Notes under the pieces: model-generated | What the model saw: the letters and a program-made list of their open reading frames with translations, nothing else | Database searches by the model: none | What the model was told of the DNA's origin: nothing | Assembly (NCBI GenBank): GCA_902767775.1 | Contig: CACXIP010000024.1 | Location: forward strand, 1-64,000 | Reading direction: 5' to 3' | Source: an uncultured Prevotellaceae bacterium | Lineage (GTDB): Bacteria; Bacteroidota; Bacteroidia; Bacteroidales; Bacteroidaceae | Length of the DNA stretch: 64,000 nt | Translations under genes and position numbers: made by a program | Part shown: piece after piece, positions 38,514 through 47,946 of the stretch | Numbering within the stretch: the first letter of the stretch is position 1 | Layout of the letters: each line of letters starts with the position of its first letter

Positions 38514-38692
38514 GGCCGTATCGGATAGATCGGGATACTCATCAAATTATTTCGAAAACCGAGAATACTTCTCCTGCCAATGGCGGGCCACATCCGTAAG
38601 GAAAGCTGTTTCAGCCGGTGGATTACAAAGGCGGAAAGCTCTCAAATCATCTGAAAACGGAGTTTTCATCACATCACCGGTACGGCCTTTTT
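38514..38692 (+). ncRNA. Candidate structured leader RNA upstream of riboflavin synthase
   Basis: GGCCGTA (514-520) can pair with TACGGCC (681-687), closing a domain of about 170 bases that is followed directly by a T-run (687-692 region). Inside are GAGAA/TTCTC (561-565 with 569-573), GCTG/CAGC (604-607 with 611-614) and a 7-bp hairpin TGAAAAC/GTTTTCA around a GGA loop (652-668). The layout of a closing stem plus T-run before a biosynthetic gene suggests a riboswitch or attenuator. The conserved words of the known FMN riboswitch are not present. Open frames of 40-100 codons exist on both strands but have no recognisable product. Confidence 0.45.
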
Positions 38693-38741
38693 TATTCTCC
38701 TTTCATCAAGTGAGTAGCATAACCATCAAAAAATCCAAAAC

Positions 38742-39556: not shown

Positions 39557-39613
39557 TGCGACAAATCAAAAGGTCTTTTTTCGTGTTTGTCGCAAATATG
39601 GTTGGCTGTCGCA
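39557..39613 (+). promoter_or_regulatory. Three-box regulatory element, copy 1
   Basis: TGCGACA at 39557-39563 (inverted) and TGTCGCA at 39588-39594 and 39607-39613 (direct, 19 bases start to start). The last box ends 53 bases before the -7 box at 39666. The same arrangement occurs at 44708-44765. It is likely an activator or repressor site, about two helical turns between the direct boxes. Confidence 0.7.
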
Positions 39614-39643: not shown

Positions 39644-39673
39644 TTGCATGCATTCCGGCTTGCTTTATCTTTG
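39644..39673 (+). promoter_or_regulatory. Promoter of small peptide gene 1
   Basis: ATTG/TTG ending at 39646, 19 bases, then TATCTTTG at 39666-39673. It predicts a leader of about 130 bases before the ATG at 39812. Confidence 0.7.
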
Positions 39674-39811: not shown

Positions 39812-39988
39812 ATGAAAGCAATGGAATTAACCCCGACAACAGTTGCCCAGTTCGACAACACGACAATGGCAACACGAGTGAGCAACTTCAAAAAGTCTGC
39901 CAAGAAATTCTTCAAAGCCACTTACAGATTTCTCATGGTAATCAGCCCGGTCTACCCGCAGTATGTTGAGAGCCAGAAAAGAAACTAA
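39812..39988 (+). CDS. Small peptide, paralog 1 of an unrecognised family (58 aa)
   Basis: 58-residue reading frame with a promoter and a regulatory element of its own. The N-terminus MKAMELTPTTVAQF matches MKTMNVTPMTIAQY of the second copy at 44880. A lysine-rich central stretch (NFKKSAKKFFKATYRF) is followed by a short hydrophobic patch and the end QKRN. It has no signal peptide. The sequence before the ATG (ACAAAAAAATACGATT) also resembles that of copy 2. The next gene, an exported His-rich protein, begins 40 bases downstream and is probably co-transcribed. I do not recognise the family; an amphipathic membrane-active or leader-type peptide is possible. The conservation of the pair is the main evidence that it is coding. 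Confidence 0.72.
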   Translation: MKAMELTPTTVAQFDNTTMATRVSNFKKSAKKFFKATYRFLMVISPVYPQYVESQKRN

Positions 39989-40028
39989 ATGTATTGGAAA
40001 TAAAGCCTAAAAATAACACAATTCATAT

Positions 40029-40721
40029 ATGAAGAAAGCCCTGACAATGGCTGCGATGATGACGATAGCCATCTCCGCCACAGCAATGCCATACGAAACC
40101 GCCCGAGAAGAGGCTCTGTTTCTGAGCGACAAGATGGCCTACGAGCTCGACTTGACGGAAGAACAATATGAGGCTGTATACGAAATCAACCTCGACTACT
40201 TACTCAACGTAAAATGCCAGGCTGACGTACTGGGAACTCCGTGGACAATCCGCAACCGCGACTTGAGCCATGTGCTCTCCGACAGACAGTACGACCACTA
40301 CCTGAGCAGCGGATGGTTTTACCGCCCTGTCATATGGAAGTCTAACAGTTTGATATTCGCCATCTACAAACGTTACAATCAAGGACGGCTAATGATGCAC
40401 CGGCCTGCCGTGTTCATCAGCTACCGAGGCGGGCACAGCCACAGAGGTGCCAGTTTCTATGCCCGCCATCACTTTGGAAGAGGCATCCCTCCCAAAATTC
40501 ACGACAGGCATTTTGACGGAAACCGGCCTCAAATTATCGTCTCCAACCGAAATGCCTCTGTAGACAACAGTAGCCGTCGCAACATAGGTACAAAAGGAAT
40601 GGAAGTGATTGTCATATCAAACAACAGGCCCCACAGCATATCGTCTGGTGCTCCCAACCGTATATTAAGAAGCCATGACAAAGTTGACCACAACAGGCAT
40701 TTCGGAAGAGGACACTGGTAA
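40029..40721 (+). CDS. Exported His-rich protein with an LTEEQ motif
   Basis: 230-residue protein with a signal peptide (MKKALTMAAMMTIAISATAMP). The first mature part, ETAREEALFLSDKMAYELDL followed by TEEQYEAVYEINLDYL, is helical and carries the LTxxQ pattern known from Spy/CpxP-type periplasmic proteins. The middle has many aromatic residues, and the last 100 or so residues contain 12 histidines among Arg, Asn and Gly (for example RHHFGRG, KIHDRHF, NRHFGRGHW). Metal binding or periplasmic stress response are possible roles. I recall similar exported proteins in Prevotella and Bacteroides without an assigned function. It is likely in one transcript with small peptide 1. Confidence 0.75.
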   Translation: MKKALTMAAMMTIAISATAMPYETAREEALFLSDKMAYELDLTEEQYEAVYEINLDYLLNVKCQADVLGTPWTIRNRDLSHVLSDRQYDHYLSSGWFYRPVIWKSNSLIFAIYKRYNQGRLMMHRPAVFISYRGGHSHRGASFYARHHFGRGIPPKIHDRHFDGNRPQIIVSNRNASVDNSSRRNIGTKGMEVIVISNNRPHSISSGAPNRILRSHDKVDHNRHFGRGHW

Positions 40722-40735
40722 GTCTTCAGGCCATA

Positions 40736-41611
40736 TTATTTAGCCAGTTTTCGAGCTAATTTCAGCAATTTCTTGGATGGCTGCAAATCGCCGACAGGTG
40801 CAAGCGTCCAATTCACCGTCCAAGTTAGCGATTCACCGGGTTGGAGAGTTTGGTAAGTACCCTGACTCTCCAACTCGATGTATGTTTTTCCTCTGTTGAC
40901 ATAGACCTGAATCTCCGCCTCACCTGGAGCTGGCTGCGACTTGTCGAGGTCAGCAAACTTTTTCACCATCATCAGTCCATTGTTGCAATACGCCAACCAT
41001 CCTTTTCCGTCGGCATTGATTTTGCGGTTCTCATTGGTGGCATCCGTTGCATACCATACAGCACCAAACTCTGGTTTGAACGGCATCAGGTTGGCTGGAG
41101 TAATGTCCTCTGCTTTTGCATCGAAGAAGATGAAGCCCTCATTCGGCACACGGGTGATTTCCCATGGAGCCACTTTCCGCTCCTTGTTGTCCATGTTGGT
41201 GATGGAATAGGTCACAGTGAAAGCATTGCCTTTGCGGTTGACGGCAAACTCCTTGCCGATTCTGAACTTCAGTTTTTCAGAAACATTACTGGTGATTCTG
41301 AGGACTGAGCTACTCTCCTCCACAGTATAGGGCTGTTTGTCGTATTCGGGCACCGGAGGCCAGTTCCATTCCTTCTGCGGACTTGTCCAGAAGGTACTTC
41401 CAAATGACTCTGGAAATCTTGACTGAGAAATCGTCTCAACATCCTTGTACTTGAACGACAGAACTTTACCGCCATGGGCAGCATCAACGACCAAAGTGAG
41501 GTCACCTGCACGCAACTCATACTTGGAATCACCGAGATCCCTGATGTCACCAGCAAAAGAGGTGGCAGCCACACCACACAGCATGGCAAGACAAAGCAAA
41601 AACTTCTTCAT
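40736..41611 (-). CDS. Exported DUF4380-type protein
   Basis: Signal peptide MKKFLLCLAMLCGVAATSFA sets the start at 41611. The frame also has ATGs at 41620 and 41686, the latter without a signal-like N-terminus. The mature part (LRAGDLTLVVDAAHGGKVLS, and FGSTFWTSPQKEWNWPPVPE given by its key residues WTSPQKEWNWPP) matches the DUF4380 beta-sandwich, a fold near galactose mutarotases and carbohydrate-processing domains. Enzymatic activity has not been established. It is divergent from the GH78 gene across 200 bases, so the two may be co-regulated in rhamnose-glycan use, which is inference. Its stop is 14 bases from the stop of the convergent His-rich protein gene. Confidence 0.75.
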   Translation of the reverse strand: MKKFLLCLAMLCGVAATSFAGDIRDLGDSKYELRAGDLTLVVDAAHGGKVLSFKYKDVETISQSRFPESFGSTFWTSPQKEWNWPPVPEYDKQPYTVEESSSVLRITSNVSEKLKFRIGKEFAVNRKGNAFTVTYSITNMDNKERKVAPWEITRVPNEGFIFFDAKAEDITPANLMPFKPEFGAVWYATDATNENRKINADGKGWLAYCNNGLMMVKKFADLDKSQPAPGEAEIQVYVNRGKTYIELESQGTYQTLQPGESLTWTVNWTLAPVGDLQPSKKLLKLARKLAK

Positions 41612-41759
41612 TTTTTTCATGTTGGATGTAATACAATAACCATCCCACAAGTCCCATCTCTGAAACCTGGAGGATATGCTTTTCACCTATTTGACGGAAA
41701 AAAACAAAGAAAGTAAAATCCACTATCTTATATTTTGCACAAGTGTCGTTTCTTTTTAC

Positions 41760-41767
41760 TATATTTG
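41760..41767 (+). promoter_or_regulatory. -7 box for the GH78 gene
   Basis: TATATTTG, with TTTG at 41734-41737 22 bases upstream. The gene starts at 41811. Confidence 0.5.
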
Positions 41768-41810
41768 CATCAGATTATGTAATAAAGCAAATTTCAACTT
41801 GAGACAAGAG

Positions 41811-44390
41811 ATGAGAACATTTTTTTTCGTAGGTCTAATGATGATTATTGGCTGTGTGCTGATGACGGCTTGCAGCAATAAGCACAAGCTGGAGGGAGCA
41901 TCACGCACCACCCCACTCAGCAGTGATGCTTGGAATGCATCGGAATGGATTTCCGTAGTGGATGCACCTGTCGTCACGGGCAAGGTGACAGACGACAAGA
42001 ACAACCGCTCTGCAGACGGAGCAAACTGGTTTGTTTCGACTGTAAGGAACGAGAAGAAAGTGACAAAGGCACTATGGATGACCACCGGACTGGGTGTTTA
42101 TTATCTCTATGTGAACGGAGTGCCTGTGGGAGATGAAATCCTAAAGCCAGGTTTTACACATCATAAGAAGACGAAACGGTCGTTCACCTACGACATCACC
42201 CGCCTTCTTAACCAGAAAGCCAATGCCGAGAATGTTCTTTCCGCACAGGTGACGCCAGGATGGTGGGCTGACAAAATCATCACCAACAGCGGTCATGAGG
42301 GAATGATAGGACGCAAGTGCGCATTCCGCGGTGTATTGGAACTCACCTATTCCGATGGTTCAATCAAACGTTACGGCACCAATCAAGGCAGTTGGAAAGC
42401 CGGCATCGCAGGAGCGGTAAGGCATGCCGGCATCTTCGATGGAGAGGAATATGATGCCCGTGAACCAATGGGTTACGAGAATATGGGAAAATTCTCCTCT
42501 CCGGAAATCAACACGGAATTTGGAGGCGATATACTGCCATCGGATGGTGCCGAGGTGTATTTGAGGAAAGACCTCACGCTGAAGCCAGTGAAAGCCTATA
42601 AGTGGAAAGGTGTAACAGGTTCCTCACAAGAGGAATATGGCAAAGTGGTTGTCGTTAAGGATTACGCTTTGGGCGACGAGATGAGCATCAGTCCGGAGGA
42701 AACTTTGGTCATCGATTTCGGGCAGAACTGTTCTGCAGTGCCCTCATTCGTGTTCAAGGCCAAGGAGGGAACTGTGCTTACCTGCCTTCCCGCCGAACTG
42801 CTCAACGACGGCAATGGAGCCAAGAGCCGTGGCATGGACGGACCAGAAGGCAGTGTCCACCGTCTCAATCTCCGCATCCCCGATTCAGGCATACGGGTGG
42901 TATATACCTTTGCCAACGACAAGGATTATGTAACCTATCAGCCCCTTTGCTCTTTCTTCGGCTACCGCTACATCTCTATCTCCGCCACTGATGAGGTCGC
43001 CATCAAATCGGTCAGTTCTGTGCCTGTATCATCCATCACCAAAGAGATGGAAACAGGACATATCACCACGGGTAATGAGATAATCAACAAGTTGATATCC
43101 AACACCTACTGGGGACAGCTCTCCAATTACCTTTCTGTCCCAACAGACTGTCCTCAGCGCAATGAGCGGTTGGGATGGACAGCCGACACACAGGTCTTCA
43201 CGGAGACAGGCACATTTTTCGCCAATACTGACAAGTTCTTCCACAAATGGATGCGCGACATGCGCGACACACAAAATGAAAAGGGTGGTTTTCCTGGTGT
43301 GGCACCTTTAGCCCAATATGGTGATGAGAAGATGCGTGTGGGATGGGCCGACGCAGGCATCATCGTACCATGGACAATATGGAAGCAGTATGGTGACACA
43401 CGCATCATCGATGACAACTGGAATGCCATGGTGCGCTTCATGAACCATGTCTATGAGACAAAATACGACCATGACGCACTAAAGGAAGAGAACGGCAACT
43501 ACCAATGGGCCGACTGGCTCAGTTACGAGCCATTGGAGAGTTGCAGCGGGAAGGCATGGGACAAGGACGGCTTATTGCCCGATGCAAGAGTCTATTGGAA
43601 CTTCCTCTGCGCTTCCTACTGGGCCATCGACGCACGCATGATGTGCGACATGGCAGCAGCCACAGGAAAGGCAACCGCCACCTATAGGAAGATGGCCGAC
43701 GAAGCCATAGGCTACCTGAGAGAGCAATTCATCAATTCAGATGGCACTTTCAAGACCGCCATACTAAACACCATGCAGACCCCCATGCTCTTCGCCTTGA
43801 AAAACAAGCTTGTGGAAGGCGAGGCAAAGGAAAAGATGAAAGCCCGGCTGAGGGAGAATTTTGCCTCCCATGGCAACTGTCTTCAAACTGGGTTCCTGGG
43901 CACCTCCATCCTTATGGAAACACTAACAGAGAACGGCATGTCCGACATTGCTTATGAACTACTCTTCCAGCACAAAAATCCCAGTTGGCTGTATTCGATA
44001 GACAATGGAGCAACCACCATCTGGGAGCGGTGGAACAGTTATATGAAAGACGTGGGCATGGGACCCAGAGGAATGAATAGTTTCAACCACTATGCCTACG
44101 GATGCGTATGCCAGTGGCTGTGGGAGTCGGTGGCAGGTATCGCAGCAGACACGAAAAAGCCAGGATTCAAGCATATCATCATGCGCCCCATTCCCGACAA
44201 GCGCCTGGGGCATGTCACCGCAGAATATCATTCAGCCGCAGGACTCATCAAGAGTGCCTGGCGCTATGAGGGTGACTTGTGGACATGGGAGTTCACCATC
44301 CCTAAGGGTGCCACTGCCTCGGTATGCCTGCCGGGACAGACAGAATGGAAGGAATATGAAAGCGGAACCTTTACCCTAACCTGCCCATAA
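41811..44390 (+). CDS. GH78 alpha-L-rhamnosidase lipoprotein
   Basis: Releases alpha-L-rhamnose from plant or microbial glycans. The ATG at 41811 gives a lipoprotein signal (MRTFFFVGLMMIIGCVLMTAC). The upstream extension to 41676 has no signal character and was rejected. Domain order is an N-terminal rhamnosidase beta-sandwich (GLGVYYLYVNGVPVGDEI), a second sandwich, the (alpha/alpha)6 catalytic barrel with VPTDCPQRNERLGWTADTQV holding the general-acid Glu, the partner Glu in NGATTIWERWNSY, and a C-terminal sandwich (GATASVCLPGQTEWKEYESG). It has 860 residues. It may act on rhamnogalacturonan along with the pectin enzymes at 5.4-8.6 kb. A small membrane protein gene follows after four bases or so. 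Confidence 0.92.
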   Translation: MRTFFFVGLMMIIGCVLMTACSNKHKLEGASRTTPLSSDAWNASEWISVVDAPVVTGKVTDDKNNRSADGANWFVSTVRNEKKVTKALWMTTGLGVYYLYVNGVPVGDEILKPGFTHHKKTKRSFTYDITRLLNQKANAENVLSAQVTPGWWADKIITNSGHEGMIGRKCAFRGVLELTYSDGSIKRYGTNQGSWKAGIAGAVRHAGIFDGEEYDAREPMGYENMGKFSSPEINTEFGGDILPSDGAEVYLRKDLTLKPVKAYKWKGVTGSSQEEYGKVVVVKDYALGDEMSISPEETLVIDFGQNCSAVPSFVFKAKEGTVLTCLPAELLNDGNGAKSRGMDGPEGSVHRLNLRIPDSGIRVVYTFANDKDYVTYQPLCSFFGYRYISISATDEVAIKSVSSVPVSSITKEMETGHITTGNEIINKLISNTYWGQLSNYLSVPTDCPQRNERLGWTADTQVFTETGTFFANTDKFFHKWMRDMRDTQNEKGGFPGVAPLAQYGDEKMRVGWADAGIIVPWTIWKQYGDTRIIDDNWNAMVRFMNHVYETKYDHDALKEENGNYQWADWLSYEPLESCSGKAWDKDGLLPDARVYWNFLCASYWAIDARMMCDMAAATGKATATYRKMADEAIGYLREQFINSDGTFKTAILNTMQTPMLFALKNKLVEGEAKEKMKARLRENFASHGNCLQTGFLGTSILMETLTENGMSDIAYELLFQHKNPSWLYSIDNGATTIWERWNSYMKDVGMGPRGMNSFNHYAYGCVCQWLWESVAGIAADTKKPGFKHIIMRPIPDKRLGHVTAEYHSAAGLIKSAWRYEGDLWTWEFTIPKGATASVCLPGQTEWKEYESGTFTLTCP

Positions 44391-44394
44391 GGTC

Positions 44395-44604
44395 ATGAAC
44401 AAAATAAAGAACATAGCAATGAACAAAAGGCAAAAATTGCAAGTGGGCTTAGCGATTTTATTCACAGTCCTCTTCGTTATTTGGTTGTTTATCCCAGTCC
44501 CAATGTATTCTAGAATACTTGGTTTGCTCTCCAATGGTTTGGGTGTTCTGAGCATGGTTCTCTCCTATAAAGCAGAAGAGAAGAATAAAAAGAAATCTGA
44601 CTGA
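44395..44604 (+). CDS. Small membrane protein with two predicted membrane helices
   Basis: 69 residues if started at 44395, or 61 from the ATG at 44419. Two hydrophobic stretches (about 16-36 and 40-58, counted from the first start) are separated by a short Pro-rich turn (FIPVPMYSR) and followed by a charged tail (KAEEKNKKKSD). It begins four bases after the GH78 stop and is probably co-transcribed with it. I do not recognise a family. Confidence 0.6.
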   Translation: MNKIKNIAMNKRQKLQVGLAILFTVLFVIWLFIPVPMYSRILGLLSNGLGVLSMVLSYKAEEKNKKKSD

Positions 44605-44707
44605 TTGCAATTTCAATTATGGTTATGATAAAAACAGGATCAGAATAACCGTTTTCTCTACATAAAGGGAGGCATTCCAGTTAATAAATGCGAGACGATT
44701 TTGGTGT

Positions 44708-44765
44708 TGCGACAGTTTTCCCATCGCTTTTTGGGGGACTGTCGCAACTTCGGTATGCTGTCGCA
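44708..44765 (+). promoter_or_regulatory. Three-box regulatory element, copy 2
   Basis: TGCGACA at 44708-44714 and TGTCGCA at 44740-44746 and 44759-44765. The direct boxes are 19 bases apart start to start, and the last ends 53 bases before the -7 box, both identical to copy 1. The inverted box is 32 bases before the first direct box, against 31 in copy 1. Confidence 0.7.
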
Positions 44766-44794
44766 TCAACTTTAGCAAGAAACAGCGAAAAAAC

Positions 44795-44825
44795 TTTGCT
44801 GACGCTTAAAGCCGCTCTATCTTTG
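44795..44825 (+). promoter_or_regulatory. Promoter of small peptide gene 2
   Basis: TTTG at 44795-44798, 19 bases, then TATCTTTG at 44818-44825: a perfect Bacteroidota consensus. It predicts a leader of about 50 bases. Confidence 0.78.
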
Positions 44826-44879
44826 CATCAGAAAAAGAACAAAAAACAAAAATAACAAATAACAAAAAAAGAAAAGATT

Positions 44880-45044
44880 ATGAAGACAATGAATGTAACC
44901 CCAATGACTATTGCTCAGTATGAGCATGATCATGTAGACGTAGTCGCCAAGTGCAAGAAAGCCATCTCCAAGTTCATCAACACCTACCTGGTTTTGGGCG
45001 AAATCTATGCCTTATGGGGTAGATTTCGCCCGAATTGTCTTTGA
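44880..45044 (+). CDS. Small peptide, paralog 2 of an unrecognised family (54 aa)
   Basis: 54-residue reading frame. MKTMNVTPMTIAQY aligns with MKAMELTPTTVAQF of the copy at 39812; the consensus is MK-M--TP-T-AQ. The central KCKKAISKFINTYLVLGEIY is basic then hydrophobic, as in copy 1, and the end RFRPNCL is different. It has one Cys in the core and one near the C-terminus, which copy 1 lacks. It has no signal peptide. It carries the same regulatory element and promoter layout as copy 1, but no exported His-rich protein follows; the outer-membrane barrel gene converges 12 bases away. The function is unknown. Confidence 0.72.
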   Translation: MKTMNVTPMTIAQYEHDHVDVVAKCKKAISKFINTYLVLGEIYALWGRFRPNCL

Positions 45045-45055
45045 CCATATCACAC

Positions 45056-47092
45056 TTATTTCGACAGGATACCAGTTTCACTGTCGCTATGGTTCATGGA
45101 GCGCTGAATATCACGATATTTTCGGCCATGGTCTAAACGGTAACTCAGTTTCAAAGTCACCATATTGCCATAATCGCGACAGTGTTGTGTGATTTCTTTC
45201 TGAACATAACGGCTCACGACTTCTGTTTTATTGGTAAGTGGATGCTGGCAGAATGGGTGCTGAACATACAGAGAAATGTTGAAGGTATCATTCATGCGGT
45301 AATTGCAGGTGAAATACCATGCTGGCGCCTGATGTCCGCGGTGCTCACCTTCCATGAAGTTCCATCCATTGTCGGCGTAGGCTCCAAGCGTCCAGCGCCC
45401 CAGATAGGCTTGCAGAGAACAGCCTCCATTGAAAGATGTATAGGTGTGGGTATAGTCCTCTCCGTAGTTAAAGAAACGATAGATTCCGCCATAGATAGTG
45501 GCAGTCAACTTCTCTGAGAGCACCTCCCACTGGTTGTAAAAGGTGATATAGAAAAAGTTGCAAGAATTGTCGGCATTGGTCTGCGTCTGAAAGAAACGGT
45601 CACCCTCGCGGAAATATTTTTCCATATTGCAATGCGCATTGAGACGATAATAGCCTTGCAATTCTGACGTGAAGCGCGGTGTGGTATATGAGAGTTTCAG
45701 TTGATGAGAGGTGACACGGTTGGGGTGAATCTCAGGATTGCCAAGAATGGTTTCCATTGCGTTTTTCTTAATACTGACATTACTGACGAGAGCAATTTGA
45801 GAGACATGCTGAGAGATTTCAATGTTGTAGTTCAACTTGAAATGAGAAGCCAGCGGATAACTAACGGTGAAATGGGGACGGAATAGCCAGAAATGATACT
45901 GTACATCACCCTGTCGGTAGTATCGGCGACTTACGCCAAGACCGCCCATATAACTCAGTTTACCGAGATGTCCATTCAATTGCGAAAAGAGATAAACGTC
46001 GGATGTGTGGATGCCGTTGGTGGCATTGACATCTCCCCTATATTCATTGTGATTATACCGCTGCGAATACTGTATACCATTGGAAATAGTAAAAGGTTTA
46101 AGCCTGTTCTCATAGATGGCTTCACCCCATAGACTATATGTCCGTCCGTTTGTATGGTATCGATAGGCAGTACTTTCATTGTTCTCGGTGTCGCCAGTTG
46201 TCTTAATATATGTTCCTACGACATTGGCTGTCAGCGACTGATGACGATGAAAAACCAAATGACAGTAAAGGTCTAACGAAGGTGTGGTACTACGGGATGA
46301 CGAACACTCATCATAAGGTATGCCATTGACATCCATCTCAGCTTTCCTCCGCTGTGGCTTTATGTCTGCGCTGCCAGAGAGTTTGGCTTGAAACACATAG
46401 TTTGAATCGCTCAGGCTATAGGTCAGATTGGCGATATGGCTGAGATTCTTGCTTTGCTCACTCAGACTATGGCGGTTCATCGTCACTTTTTCGCCACCCT
46501 CCAACTCATAGGTTGAAAGTTCTTCATAAGTTGTCCCCTTGAAGTTTTGGTAATCTAATCCATAACTAAGTGCCAGTTCGCTGCGCCCGTGATTGATTTT
46601 GCCATAAAACGACTCACTGCCATTCACTGTGGTCAATGTATTGGTGAGTTGTGTGCCAACGACATATCCACTTACCCGTTTCCTGACCTTGAAATTGATG
46701 ACATAGGCAATGCCCTCACCATATCGCACACCAGGATTATCAATCAACTCAACGTGTTCAACGCCTTTCATGTCGAGTGCCTGCAAGTCCTCTTTGGAAG
46801 CAATGATATCATTGATGCGCACCTGCACAGTGCCGAGGTTTGTCAGAGCCGTGATGCTGTTCATGGCCTCATCCACCCGGATATGTGGAAGTGTCAGTTT
46901 TGCGAGTAGTGAGTAAGCATTGGCAGAATTCTCTATCTGCTGCTTTGTTGGATAGAACCATTGTCCGTCCACCTTCTGAATGACACGTGCTCCTTTTACC
47001 GTTATTTCATCAAGCGTAACACTTTTTTCAGTGTCTTGCGCTGCTACAGTCAACGCATAGACAGCCATCAAGCAAAAAAACAATCTCTTCAT
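45056..47092 (-). CDS. Outer-membrane beta-barrel protein, TonB-receptor-like
   Basis: Barrel protein of the type paired with small regulators in Bacteroidota. The start at 47092 gives a signal peptide (MKRLFFCLMAVYALTVAAQ). The frame extends to 47197 without a signal, so that start was rejected. The mature N-terminus KSVTLDEITVKGARV is plug-like, followed by VRINDIIASKEDLQALDMKG and GVEHVELIDNPGVRYGEGIA, features of TonB-dependent plugs. No regulatory-like N-terminal domain is present. About 550 residues of alternating strands follow (outer membrane beta-barrel family 3 type). The ligand is unknown. It lies 105 bases after the regulator gene and is probably in its operon. Confidence 0.82.
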   Translation of the reverse strand: MKRLFFCLMAVYALTVAAQDTEKSVTLDEITVKGARVIQKVDGQWFYPTKQQIENSANAYSLLAKLTLPHIRVDEAMNSITALTNLGTVQVRINDIIASKEDLQALDMKGVEHVELIDNPGVRYGEGIAYVINFKVRKRVSGYVVGTQLTNTLTTVNGSESFYGKINHGRSELALSYGLDYQNFKGTTYEELSTYELEGGEKVTMNRHSLSEQSKNLSHIANLTYSLSDSNYVFQAKLSGSADIKPQRRKAEMDVNGIPYDECSSSRSTTPSLDLYCHLVFHRHQSLTANVVGTYIKTTGDTENNESTAYRYHTNGRTYSLWGEAIYENRLKPFTISNGIQYSQRYNHNEYRGDVNATNGIHTSDVYLFSQLNGHLGKLSYMGGLGVSRRYYRQGDVQYHFWLFRPHFTVSYPLASHFKLNYNIEISQHVSQIALVSNVSIKKNAMETILGNPEIHPNRVTSHQLKLSYTTPRFTSELQGYYRLNAHCNMEKYFREGDRFFQTQTNADNSCNFFYITFYNQWEVLSEKLTATIYGGIYRFFNYGEDYTHTYTSFNGGCSLQAYLGRWTLGAYADNGWNFMEGEHRGHQAPAWYFTCNYRMNDTFNISLYVQHPFCQHPLTNKTEVVSRYVQKEITQHCRDYGNMVTLKLSYRLDHGRKYRDIQRSMNHSDSETGILSK

Positions 47093-47197
47093 ATCTTGCG
47101 TTTTTACGGCAAAAATAGGAAGAGATTTACAAAAGGTAGAAAAAGCAACCTGACATTTGTCTGACATTTCACAGTCAGGCTCAGTGTCAGCTTCCAT

Positions 47198-47911
47198 CTA
47201 TTTGATTTTCAGGCGATAGGCTTTGCTGCGGTCAGACTCTATTCTGAGGTTGGAATGTTGTTCAATCACATGTTTCAGTCTGCGGATAAGTGTATAAAGC
47301 GTATTGTTTGCATCTGGTTTCTTAGGCCATAGGGCATCACAAATCTCCGTTTTCGTCAGCGAATAGGAAGGAGAATGGAAGAACATTTCCATCAACTGAG
47401 ACTGCATTGGAGTAAACTGTACAGGGTTGCCATCTGCAGCATAGAAACAGCCATCTGCCTCTGAGTACGACAGACCGCCATAACTGTTATCTGTTGGAGA
47501 TAGTGCAAGCATCGGAACATTGTCAATTGTATGACGACGACGATACCACATAAATATTGCCCAAAATGCTGTCAATATCCAGAGGATAGTGGCAGGTCTT
47601 TGGTCGGACAAACTAAAGACGGTGGCTTCAGAGCAGTGTGCGTAAGCCTGAAATTTCTTGCCACGTGTTTCTACGACCAACGTTGCCTTACCTCTCAATT
47701 CTGCTATCTGCAGATGCCTATTGAACGTGCGGATGGTATCTTGGCTTATTACATTGCTCTGCTGTTCCTCCAAGGTAAGGGCAAGTGCCCTGTTCATGTC
47801 CTCACTCACCAACTTGCTGGTGGAGTTAAAACTACCAAAGCCCGTCAGGACTGAAGCAATAATCAGTGCAAAAAGCACGAAGAATGCAAATCGTTGTCTT
47901 TCCATGTTCAT
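47198..47911 (-). CDS. Membrane-anchored winged-helix transcriptional regulator
   Basis: The N-terminal membrane helix (FAFFVLFALIIASVL) is followed by a periplasmic part of about 75 residues, a second helix (ATILWILTAFWAIFMWYRR), and a cytoplasmic winged-helix domain of OmpR/PhoB type at the C-terminus (LTKTEICDALWPKKPDANNT and LYTLIRRLKHVIEQHSNLRI). There is no receiver domain, so it resembles ToxR-style one-component regulators that sense on the outer side of the membrane and bind DNA directly. Starts at 47911 or 47905 both fit. It precedes the outer-membrane barrel gene and probably controls it; this is inference. Confidence 0.8.
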   Translation of the reverse strand: MNMERQRFAFFVLFALIIASVLTGFGSFNSTSKLVSEDMNRALALTLEEQQSNVISQDTIRTFNRHLQIAELRGKATLVVETRGKKFQAYAHCSEATVFSLSDQRPATILWILTAFWAIFMWYRRRHTIDNVPMLALSPTDNSYGGLSYSEADGCFYAADGNPVQFTPMQSQLMEMFFHSPSYSLTKTEICDALWPKKPDANNTLYTLIRRLKHVIEQHSNLRIESDRSKAYRLKIK

Positions 47912-47938
47912 TCTGCTAATTATTGATTTCCTTGGATG

Positions 47939-47946
47939 CAAAATTA
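47939..47946 (-). promoter_or_regulatory. -7 box for the membrane-bound regulator gene
   Basis: TAATTTTG on the minus strand (complement of 47939-47946), about 30 bases before the start. No clear -33 box. Confidence 0.4.

Follow-up and report, generated by a model that had tools for sequence, protein, structure and literature searches.

Small basic proteins of Prevotella-like bacteria in a three-box regulon probably read by a SpoIIE–STAS–helix-turn-helix pathway

In the RsbU/RsbV/RsbW and SpoIIE/SpoIIAA/SpoIIAB systems, the genes for a STAS protein and for a SpoIIE-type phosphatase linked to a sensor stand together. As far as the main text of a review of STAS-only proteins goes (PMC8256260), partner switching is described with sigma factors as the partners, apart from a few that are unknown, and that text holds no word beginning with 'AraC' or 'Bacteroid'. 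At the promoter level, TAnnTTTG is the consensus of the Bacteroidetes sigma-ABfr −7 element, as quoted in PMC7366714. Here we analyze a 64,000-nucleotide stretch of DNA from an uncultured Prevotellaceae bacterium (assembly GCA_902767775.1, contig CACXIP010000024.1, positions 1 to 64,000; hereafter the window), in which two short genes, copy 1 and copy 2, lie 5 kb apart. An original prediction, made from the letters of the window, had taken their products for paralogous peptides of no recognized family. Both belong to a multi-copy family whose members in this genome stand behind a three-box operator, and the best joint explanation of the data, which we regard as probable, is that this regulon is read by a pathway composed of a SpoIIE phosphatase, a STAS protein and a helix-turn-helix (HTH) protein. 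Handles beginning with G, C and L denote genomes, contigs and loci.

Both reading frames are present where they had been predicted (Table 1), and the kinship claimed for them holds: copies 1 and 2 are 33% identical over 51 aligned residues (E = 3e-07 in a single comparison), a score reached by none of 5000 shuffles of copy 2. At the nucleotide level they agree at 29 of the first 42 positions, and the bases immediately 5' of the ATG are similar. The absence of a known family was likewise borne out, as Pfam and NCBIfam gave no peptide match at curated cut-offs, PHROGs gave none better than E = 0.043, and no PDB chain matched below E 0.36. With a cut-off of E <= 0.05, the genome that holds the window (G000) has eight family members: the pair of the window, another pair on C25, and single copies on C5, C8, C23 and C29. 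Among 150 genomes of the genus, five gave matches; G000, G009 and G036 have clear members, and the weak partial matches in G012 and G126 (E 0.015–0.02) were not counted. A non-exhaustive scan of one genome per bacterial or archaeal species, seeded by two short peptide patterns, found 20 related loci. The 10 named assemblies that contain them all carry the label Prevotella, Prevotellaceae or Bacteroidaceae, and G009 and G036 (identical stretches) are among the 10. Judged by their titles these are mostly metagenome assemblies. Three of the 10 titles give a source (yak rumen, goat omasum and water-buffalo rumen), and we take the RUG-named assemblies to be rumen genomes.

Orthologs with a conserved reading frame were found in four syntenic pairs: copy 1/L191, C5/L192, C23/L193 and C8/L201. 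Their flanks are colinear over 4 kb at 86% identity for copy 1, 0.9 kb for C5, more than 2 kb downstream for C23 and more than 3 kb for C8. The ratios of nonsynonymous to synonymous change (dN/dS) are 0.24, 0.26, 0.39 and 0.38, respectively, with an excess of differences at third codon positions, and the pooled synonymous and nonsynonymous differences per site are clearly unequal (Fisher p = 2.7e-7). Over 15 pairs drawn from six family sequences, dN/dS ranges from 0.13 to 0.57. At the level of sequence, these comparisons show a multi-copy, protein-coding family under purifying selection. The outcomes that the original prediction had named as refuting it, a lack of orthologs in the same frame or of constraint on the protein, were thus not observed.

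The operator, TGCGACA-N24/25-TGTCGCA-N12-TGTCGCA, precedes all eight copies in this genome with at most two mismatches in the inverted pair, and in seven of the eight TAnnTTTG lies 71 bp past box 2. The full operator-plus-promoter pattern has no match in 100 shuffles of the window. Exact inverted pairs, with spacers of N14–N26 permitted, number 19 in the genome (16 with N24 and three with N25), compared with none for a reversed-pattern control. A scan for all three boxes, made in the stretches around previously found pair sites, gave at least 33 sites after two of 35 rows had been dropped as reverse readings of a palindromic pair that has no promoter; TAnnTTTG lies 71 or 72 bp past box 2 in 30 of the 33. 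Across the 150 genus genomes, three boxes with at most one mismatch occur in 39, whereas the reversed control gives 0 in all 150. Although TAnnTTTG was not part of the search pattern, 114 of the 133 unique sites collected have it 66–77 bp from box 2. The distance is 71 bp for 83 sites and 72 bp for 27, with no more than two at any other distance. At the 20 named loci the operator (up to three mismatches) is present in 17 and the promoter element at 71/72 bp in 18. A search that fixed only the geometry and left the box sequence free returned 106 unique hits, of which 103 are TGTCGCA or one mismatch off, and no hit in one shuffle of all loci. A-rich tracts spaced about ten bases apart lie between box 3 and the promoter. 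Together with the fixed distance to the −7 element, these tracts suggest activation from a defined helical face. Three promoters (L200, L205 and L172) keep the geometry with boxes altered in all three copies, to TGTCCAC, TGTCAGA and TGACGCT, respectively. A genus-wide variant regulon with the TGGACA/TGTCCA boxes of L200 was considered and found no support, with two matches in 150 genomes versus four for the reversed control.

A candidate for the protein that recognizes these boxes is encoded on C4 of the same genome, in an operon whose products are a SpoIIE phosphatase, a STAS protein of 100 aa and P0003, a protein of 186 aa; Pfam identifies STAS and SpoIIE domains among the proteins of this genome. 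P0003 has an N-terminal coiled coil (by eye) followed by an AraC-type HTH, with matches to HTH_18 (E = 7.4e-16) and HTH_AraC (E = 8.4e-11) that exceed the curated Pfam cut-offs, and an operator starts directly past its stop codon. Relatives of P0003 (E <= 1e-25) are present in 36 of the 150 genus genomes and the operator in 39; the two coincide in 30 (Fisher p = 8e-18, uncorrected for kinship), and the association persists when the window's own genome is removed (p = 2.6e-17). A control regulator taken from the window occurs in 74 of 150 genomes and shares 20 with the operator (p = 0.85). Of the 19 genomes with at least three operator matches, 18 have the regulator. The genes are also physically linked: in regulator-bearing genomes, and among the operator matches listed, an operator is found within 10 kb for 10 of 53 regulator genes (1.2 expected) and within 500 bp for four of 53 (0.09 expected). 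STAS and SpoIIE genes adjoin the regulator at 26 of 30 loci examined out of the 53 matches, with the phosphatase downstream at three. These observations strongly support P0003, the AraC-type HTH protein of the SpoIIE–STAS operon, as the predicted reader of the operator.

Several points weigh against this reading and the pathway built on it. The genomes in the co-occurrence test are related and hence not independent. Nine genomes have the operator and no regulator at E <= 1e-25; among them, G009 has 11 operator matches as well as peptide genes and only distant HTH relatives (28–31%), with no STAS or SpoIIE gene near these in the stretches examined. Conversely, six genomes have the regulator and no operator, even when three mismatches are allowed with the promoter at 71 bp, a pattern checked on the window; the same search found no site in 18 genomes with neither regulator nor operator. 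The C29 copy has TATCTTTA in place of TAnnTTTG at the expected position. When the third box is not required and two mismatches are allowed, 48 N24 pairs are found in the window's genome versus 17 for the reversed control, so that these loose pairs are partly due to chance. Pfam finds a HATPase domain in the C7 phosphatase only, although the C4 protein aligns over that region. The partner-switch step is drawn by analogy, and the location and target of the peptide are read from its composition.

The nine genomes with the operator alone and the six with the regulator alone speak for an alternative, in which a different regulator reads the operator and the SpoIIE–STAS–HTH operon is just another member of the regulon or a marker of lineage. 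It fits this alternative that an operator also stands in front of one of the SpoIIE genes. Against it are the specific co-occurrence of P0003 relatives with the operator, which the control regulator does not show, and the close physical linkage of the two, and we consider this alternative unlikely, if a serious one.

In the preferred pathway, a signal at the sensor part of the phosphatase would set the phosphorylation of the STAS protein, and the state of the STAS protein would in turn free or hold the HTH protein, both steps being modelled on known partner switches. The HTH protein, bound to the three boxes, would then activate transcription from upstream of the −33 region, and the peptide would be produced from several related copies under operator control, perhaps remaining in the cytoplasm on the inner membrane rather than being exported or modified. 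The chances are about even for a broader form of this model, in which, in part of a Prevotella-like genus, the protein switched by a Cache-sensor SpoIIE phosphatase and its STAS partner is an AraC-type HTH protein rather than a sigma factor. Through an operator of fixed geometry, whose boxes may change in concert in some promoters, the pathway would drive the genes for surface proteins, for Hcp (in some species) and for several families of tiny basic proteins that include the pair in the window. Feedback by these tiny proteins, on the pathway itself or on the envelope, is conceivable. If the model is true, a form of partner switching that ends in a DNA-binding activator would link a phosphatase sensor to transcription in a new way. 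Because the operator is precise enough for targets to be listed from sequence, dozens of 'hypothetical' small or secreted proteins become one testable set, and the operator offers a promoter-anchored route to tiny proteins overlooked by homology searches.

Further genes behind the same predicted operator encode secreted proteins, PepSY-like and outer-membrane proteins among them. Within the window's genome, first genes matching PF11396 (PepSY_like, by Pfam) are found on C1, C2, C3, C4, C12, C13, C22 (two) and C25. A third operator-linked protein on C22 is PepSY-like in appearance with no Pfam match, and one on C18 is nearly identical to the C13 protein. PMC10434189 mentions PepSY-like genes BT0922-23 among the iron-regulated genes of B. 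thetaiotaomicron. Other first genes past the operator in this genome encode an OMP_b-brl_2 protein on C11, a DUF4468 protein on C27 and, on C33, a lipoprotein that resembles lipocalins with a score just under the Pfam cut-off. The one on C7 encodes a sensor of 765 aa in which Pfam finds PDC, SpoIIE and HATPase domains. In another genome the operator precedes a type VI secretion system Hcp/TssD gene (L135, by Pfam), with a similar protein at L142 (by eye). In the window's genome a 47-aa gene with an operator of its own lies 3' of the presumed regulator, and in other genomes, too, the operator precedes tiny basic peptides that end in aromatic residues. The peptides at L055 (on C4 of the window's genome), L084, L116, L100 and L107 are 36–47 aa long with mostly aromatic C-termini, and the C4, L084 and L116 peptides look related to one another by eye. 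At L120 (G063), a head like that of the peptide family precedes the signal-like sequence of an exported protein; its counterpart on C18 (L069) looks broken, and a relative on C43 lacks the head (all by eye). The 5' ends of regulon genes may have been shuffled between them.

Turning to the surroundings of the two copies, copy 1 leads into an exported His-rich protein, as had been noted originally, and copy 2 is followed by a gene on the opposite strand (45056–47197). The His-rich gene is likely to be co-transcribed with copy 1, and no operator with up to three mismatches lies between them; at L191 and L198, in two named assemblies, a similar protein comes after the peptide gene (by eye). The beta-barrel-like protein beside copy 2 has no Pfam match. 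The winged-helix protein next to it (47198–47941) is a Trans_reg_C protein by Pfam with a membrane anchor recognized by eye; it was tried as the regulator and rejected, there being no association with the operator (74 of 150 genomes, p = 0.85). LytTR-type regulators were likewise considered and set aside, although no search was aimed at them. A 6S-like RNA at 38514–38693 on the forward strand (Rfam RF01693, Bacteroidales-1, 149 bits) is the sole Rfam match in the window at the gathering threshold and stands just 5' of a riboflavin-synthase-like reading frame (named by eye). A 1201-aa Cas9-like reading frame (L029:495–5627, by eye) and a repeat array lie a few kb from the C5 copy.

Table 1. Positions of the features discussed, numbered from the first letter of the window
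Feature	Position	Strand	Remarks
Copy 1, intact family member, 58 aa	39812–39988	+	Head MKAMELTPTTVAQF, amphipathic basic middle, tail FLMVISPVYPQYVES
Operator of copy 1	TGCGACA 39557–39563; TGTCGCA 39588–39594; TGTCGCA 39607–39613	+	0 mismatches to the full pattern
−7 promoter element of copy 1, TATCTTTG	39666–39673	+	71 bp past box 2
His-rich exported protein, 230 aa	40029–40721	+	Signal-like N-terminus; starts 41 bp past copy 1
Copy 2, shortened paralog, 54 aa	44880–45044	+	Near-identical to the C25 copies over the first 116 nt, then hairpin
Operator of copy 2 (N25)	TGCGACA 44708–44714; TGTCGCA 44740–44746; TGTCGCA 44759–44765	+	N25 between the inverted boxes
−7 promoter element of copy 2, TATCTTTG	44818–44825	+	71 bp past box 2
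Strong hairpin, GGGCGAAATCTA...TAGATTTCGCCC	44993–45034	+	Encodes the apparent tail of copy 2; −30 kcal/mol
713-aa beta-barrel-like protein and winged-helix regulator	45056–47941	−	Convergent with copy 2; regulator adjoins the barrel reading frame

The arrangement at copy 1 could be taken to mean that the short frame is a translated leader, acting on the gene that follows in its operon as an attenuator or coupling peptide. Copy 1 does precede an exported protein and the C5 copy a PepSY-like protein, with similar gene orders (by eye) at L191, L198 and L192. In the window's genome, however, these are the only two of eight copies with an exported protein within 100 bp, and among the 20 relatives a reading frame of at least 80 aa begins within that distance at three. 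Several other copies are followed by terminator-like hairpins (by eye), and the sequence is constrained as protein. We therefore think a translated leader very unlikely.

The products are predicted to be basic small proteins of about 50–70 residues. Residues 24–41 of copy 1 are strongly amphipathic, with a maximal 18-residue moment reached in 12 of 2000 shuffles, and the maximum for a G036 ortholog is reached in four of 2000. Small, basic and amphipathic peptides might be secreted as antibacterial or signalling agents, and the operator is common to the peptides and to the Hcp-like genes of two other genomes. Such a role is nevertheless highly improbable, because no signal peptide and no partner immunity gene were recognized by eye, several similar copies are present in one genome, and the sequence is conserved rather than diversifying. 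The original prediction had likewise found no signal peptide on either copy, and we could recognize none by eye. The helix, the charge and the lack of a signal sequence suggest a role in the cytoplasm at the membrane surface, and of the peptide classes put forward originally, a small membrane-active or regulatory peptide is the one that we prefer. More specifically, its amphipathic helix could hold the peptide against the inner membrane, where it would tune an envelope or signalling protein; of all steps in the explanation this is the weakest, and we think it less likely than not.

The A-rich 5' leaders, the short predicted transcripts ending in hairpins and the high copy number would also suit a regulatory RNA made from a strong promoter, with a reading frame that is incidental or has a dual function. 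The dN/dS values of 0.24–0.39 in the four syntenic pairs and their third-position excess speak against an RNA of this kind, and no Rfam family was found at the peptide loci in the window at the gathering threshold. The fold of the copy 1 5' leader is weak (z −1.8). We give this possibility very little credence.

In an alignment of copy 1 with 18 of the 20 related loci (L208 and L209, where the head was not found, were omitted), the conserved head reads MK[TA]MELTPMTVAQF, and its columns M1 and K2 are conserved in at least 90% of the 19 sequences. A middle region of variable length is followed by the tail F-[LF]-[MV]-x-I-S-P-[VA]-Y-P-Q, and most relatives end in ...FLMxISPVYPQ. The only invariant columns, Y48 and P49, are in this tail, where S45, P46 and Q50 are also conserved in at least 90%. 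In most of the family the tail is thus not free. The ISPVYPQ ending is absent from a subfamily of the window's genome, made up of the two C25 copies and copy 2, and from the C29 copy (44 aa). The originally reported difference between the C-termini of copies 1 and 2 is real, but it is due to the truncation of copy 2 and not to free tails across the family; the proposed pattern of a conserved head and variable tail, as in leader/core peptides, is not supported by the 19 sequences.

Copy 2 itself is a truncated paralog. Over its first 116 nt it differs at one position from C25:21337 and at two from C25:23203 (98–99% identical). C25:23203 reads on to 58 aa, and C25:21337 is frame-shifted near the point where copy 2 diverges. 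Copy 2 lacks the family tail because its frame enters a hairpin, which folds at −30 kcal/mol versus −11 for shuffles (z −7.8). As the hairpin is reached directly after the matching stretch, the apparent tail is hairpin sequence. In the opposite sense, the same hairpin is present at C25:21337, about 105 nt past the corresponding point (by eye). It was considered as a window-wide repeat and rejected, since the window has no other paired copy; its 12-nt arm has three window matches in all versus 0.41 expected, the only one outside the hairpin having one mismatch. That the family comprises ribosomally synthesized and post-translationally modified peptide (RiPP)-like precursors, in which a conserved head guides the modification or export of a variable core, is the least credible possibility of all, for although the head is conserved, the window copies differ at the C-terminus and the ISPVYPQ ending is missing on C25 and C29 too, the sole invariant columns are in the tail, that of copy 2 is hairpin sequence, and no modification or peptide-export genes were noticed in the neighbourhoods read by eye, where no systematic search was made.

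Among the matches listed from the open-access literature, there was no account of the peptide family, the operator or a SpoIIE–STAS–AraC module. The peptides resemble PepSY_like proteins (PF11396) in their first residues only and do not match that profile, although the secreted PepSY_like proteins are frequent in the regulon and sometimes adjoin a peptide gene. As in AraC/XylS activators, an AraC-type HTH is matched with several box copies 5' of a promoter. Unlike those activators, P0003 has a coiled coil (by eye) at its N-terminus and a STAS neighbour, and no sugar-binding or other effector domain was matched in it. The spacing of the boxes (31 bp inverted, 19 bp direct) is also unlike that of AraC. 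With sigma-ABfr promoters (TAnnTTTG at −7 and TTTG at −33) the sites share the −7 element, to which they add a fixed upstream operator and A-rich tracts. In gene content there is a likeness to the Rsb and SpoIIA systems, which likewise combine a sensor-linked SpoIIE-type phosphatase with a STAS protein, and a HATPase domain is identified here in the operator-driven C7 phosphatase; the third gene here, however, encodes a coiled-coil/AraC-type DNA-binding protein and not a sigma factor. The individual parts (SpoIIE, STAS, AraC-type HTH and TAnnTTTG promoters) are known, whereas the way in which they are combined appears new, as does the three-box operator.

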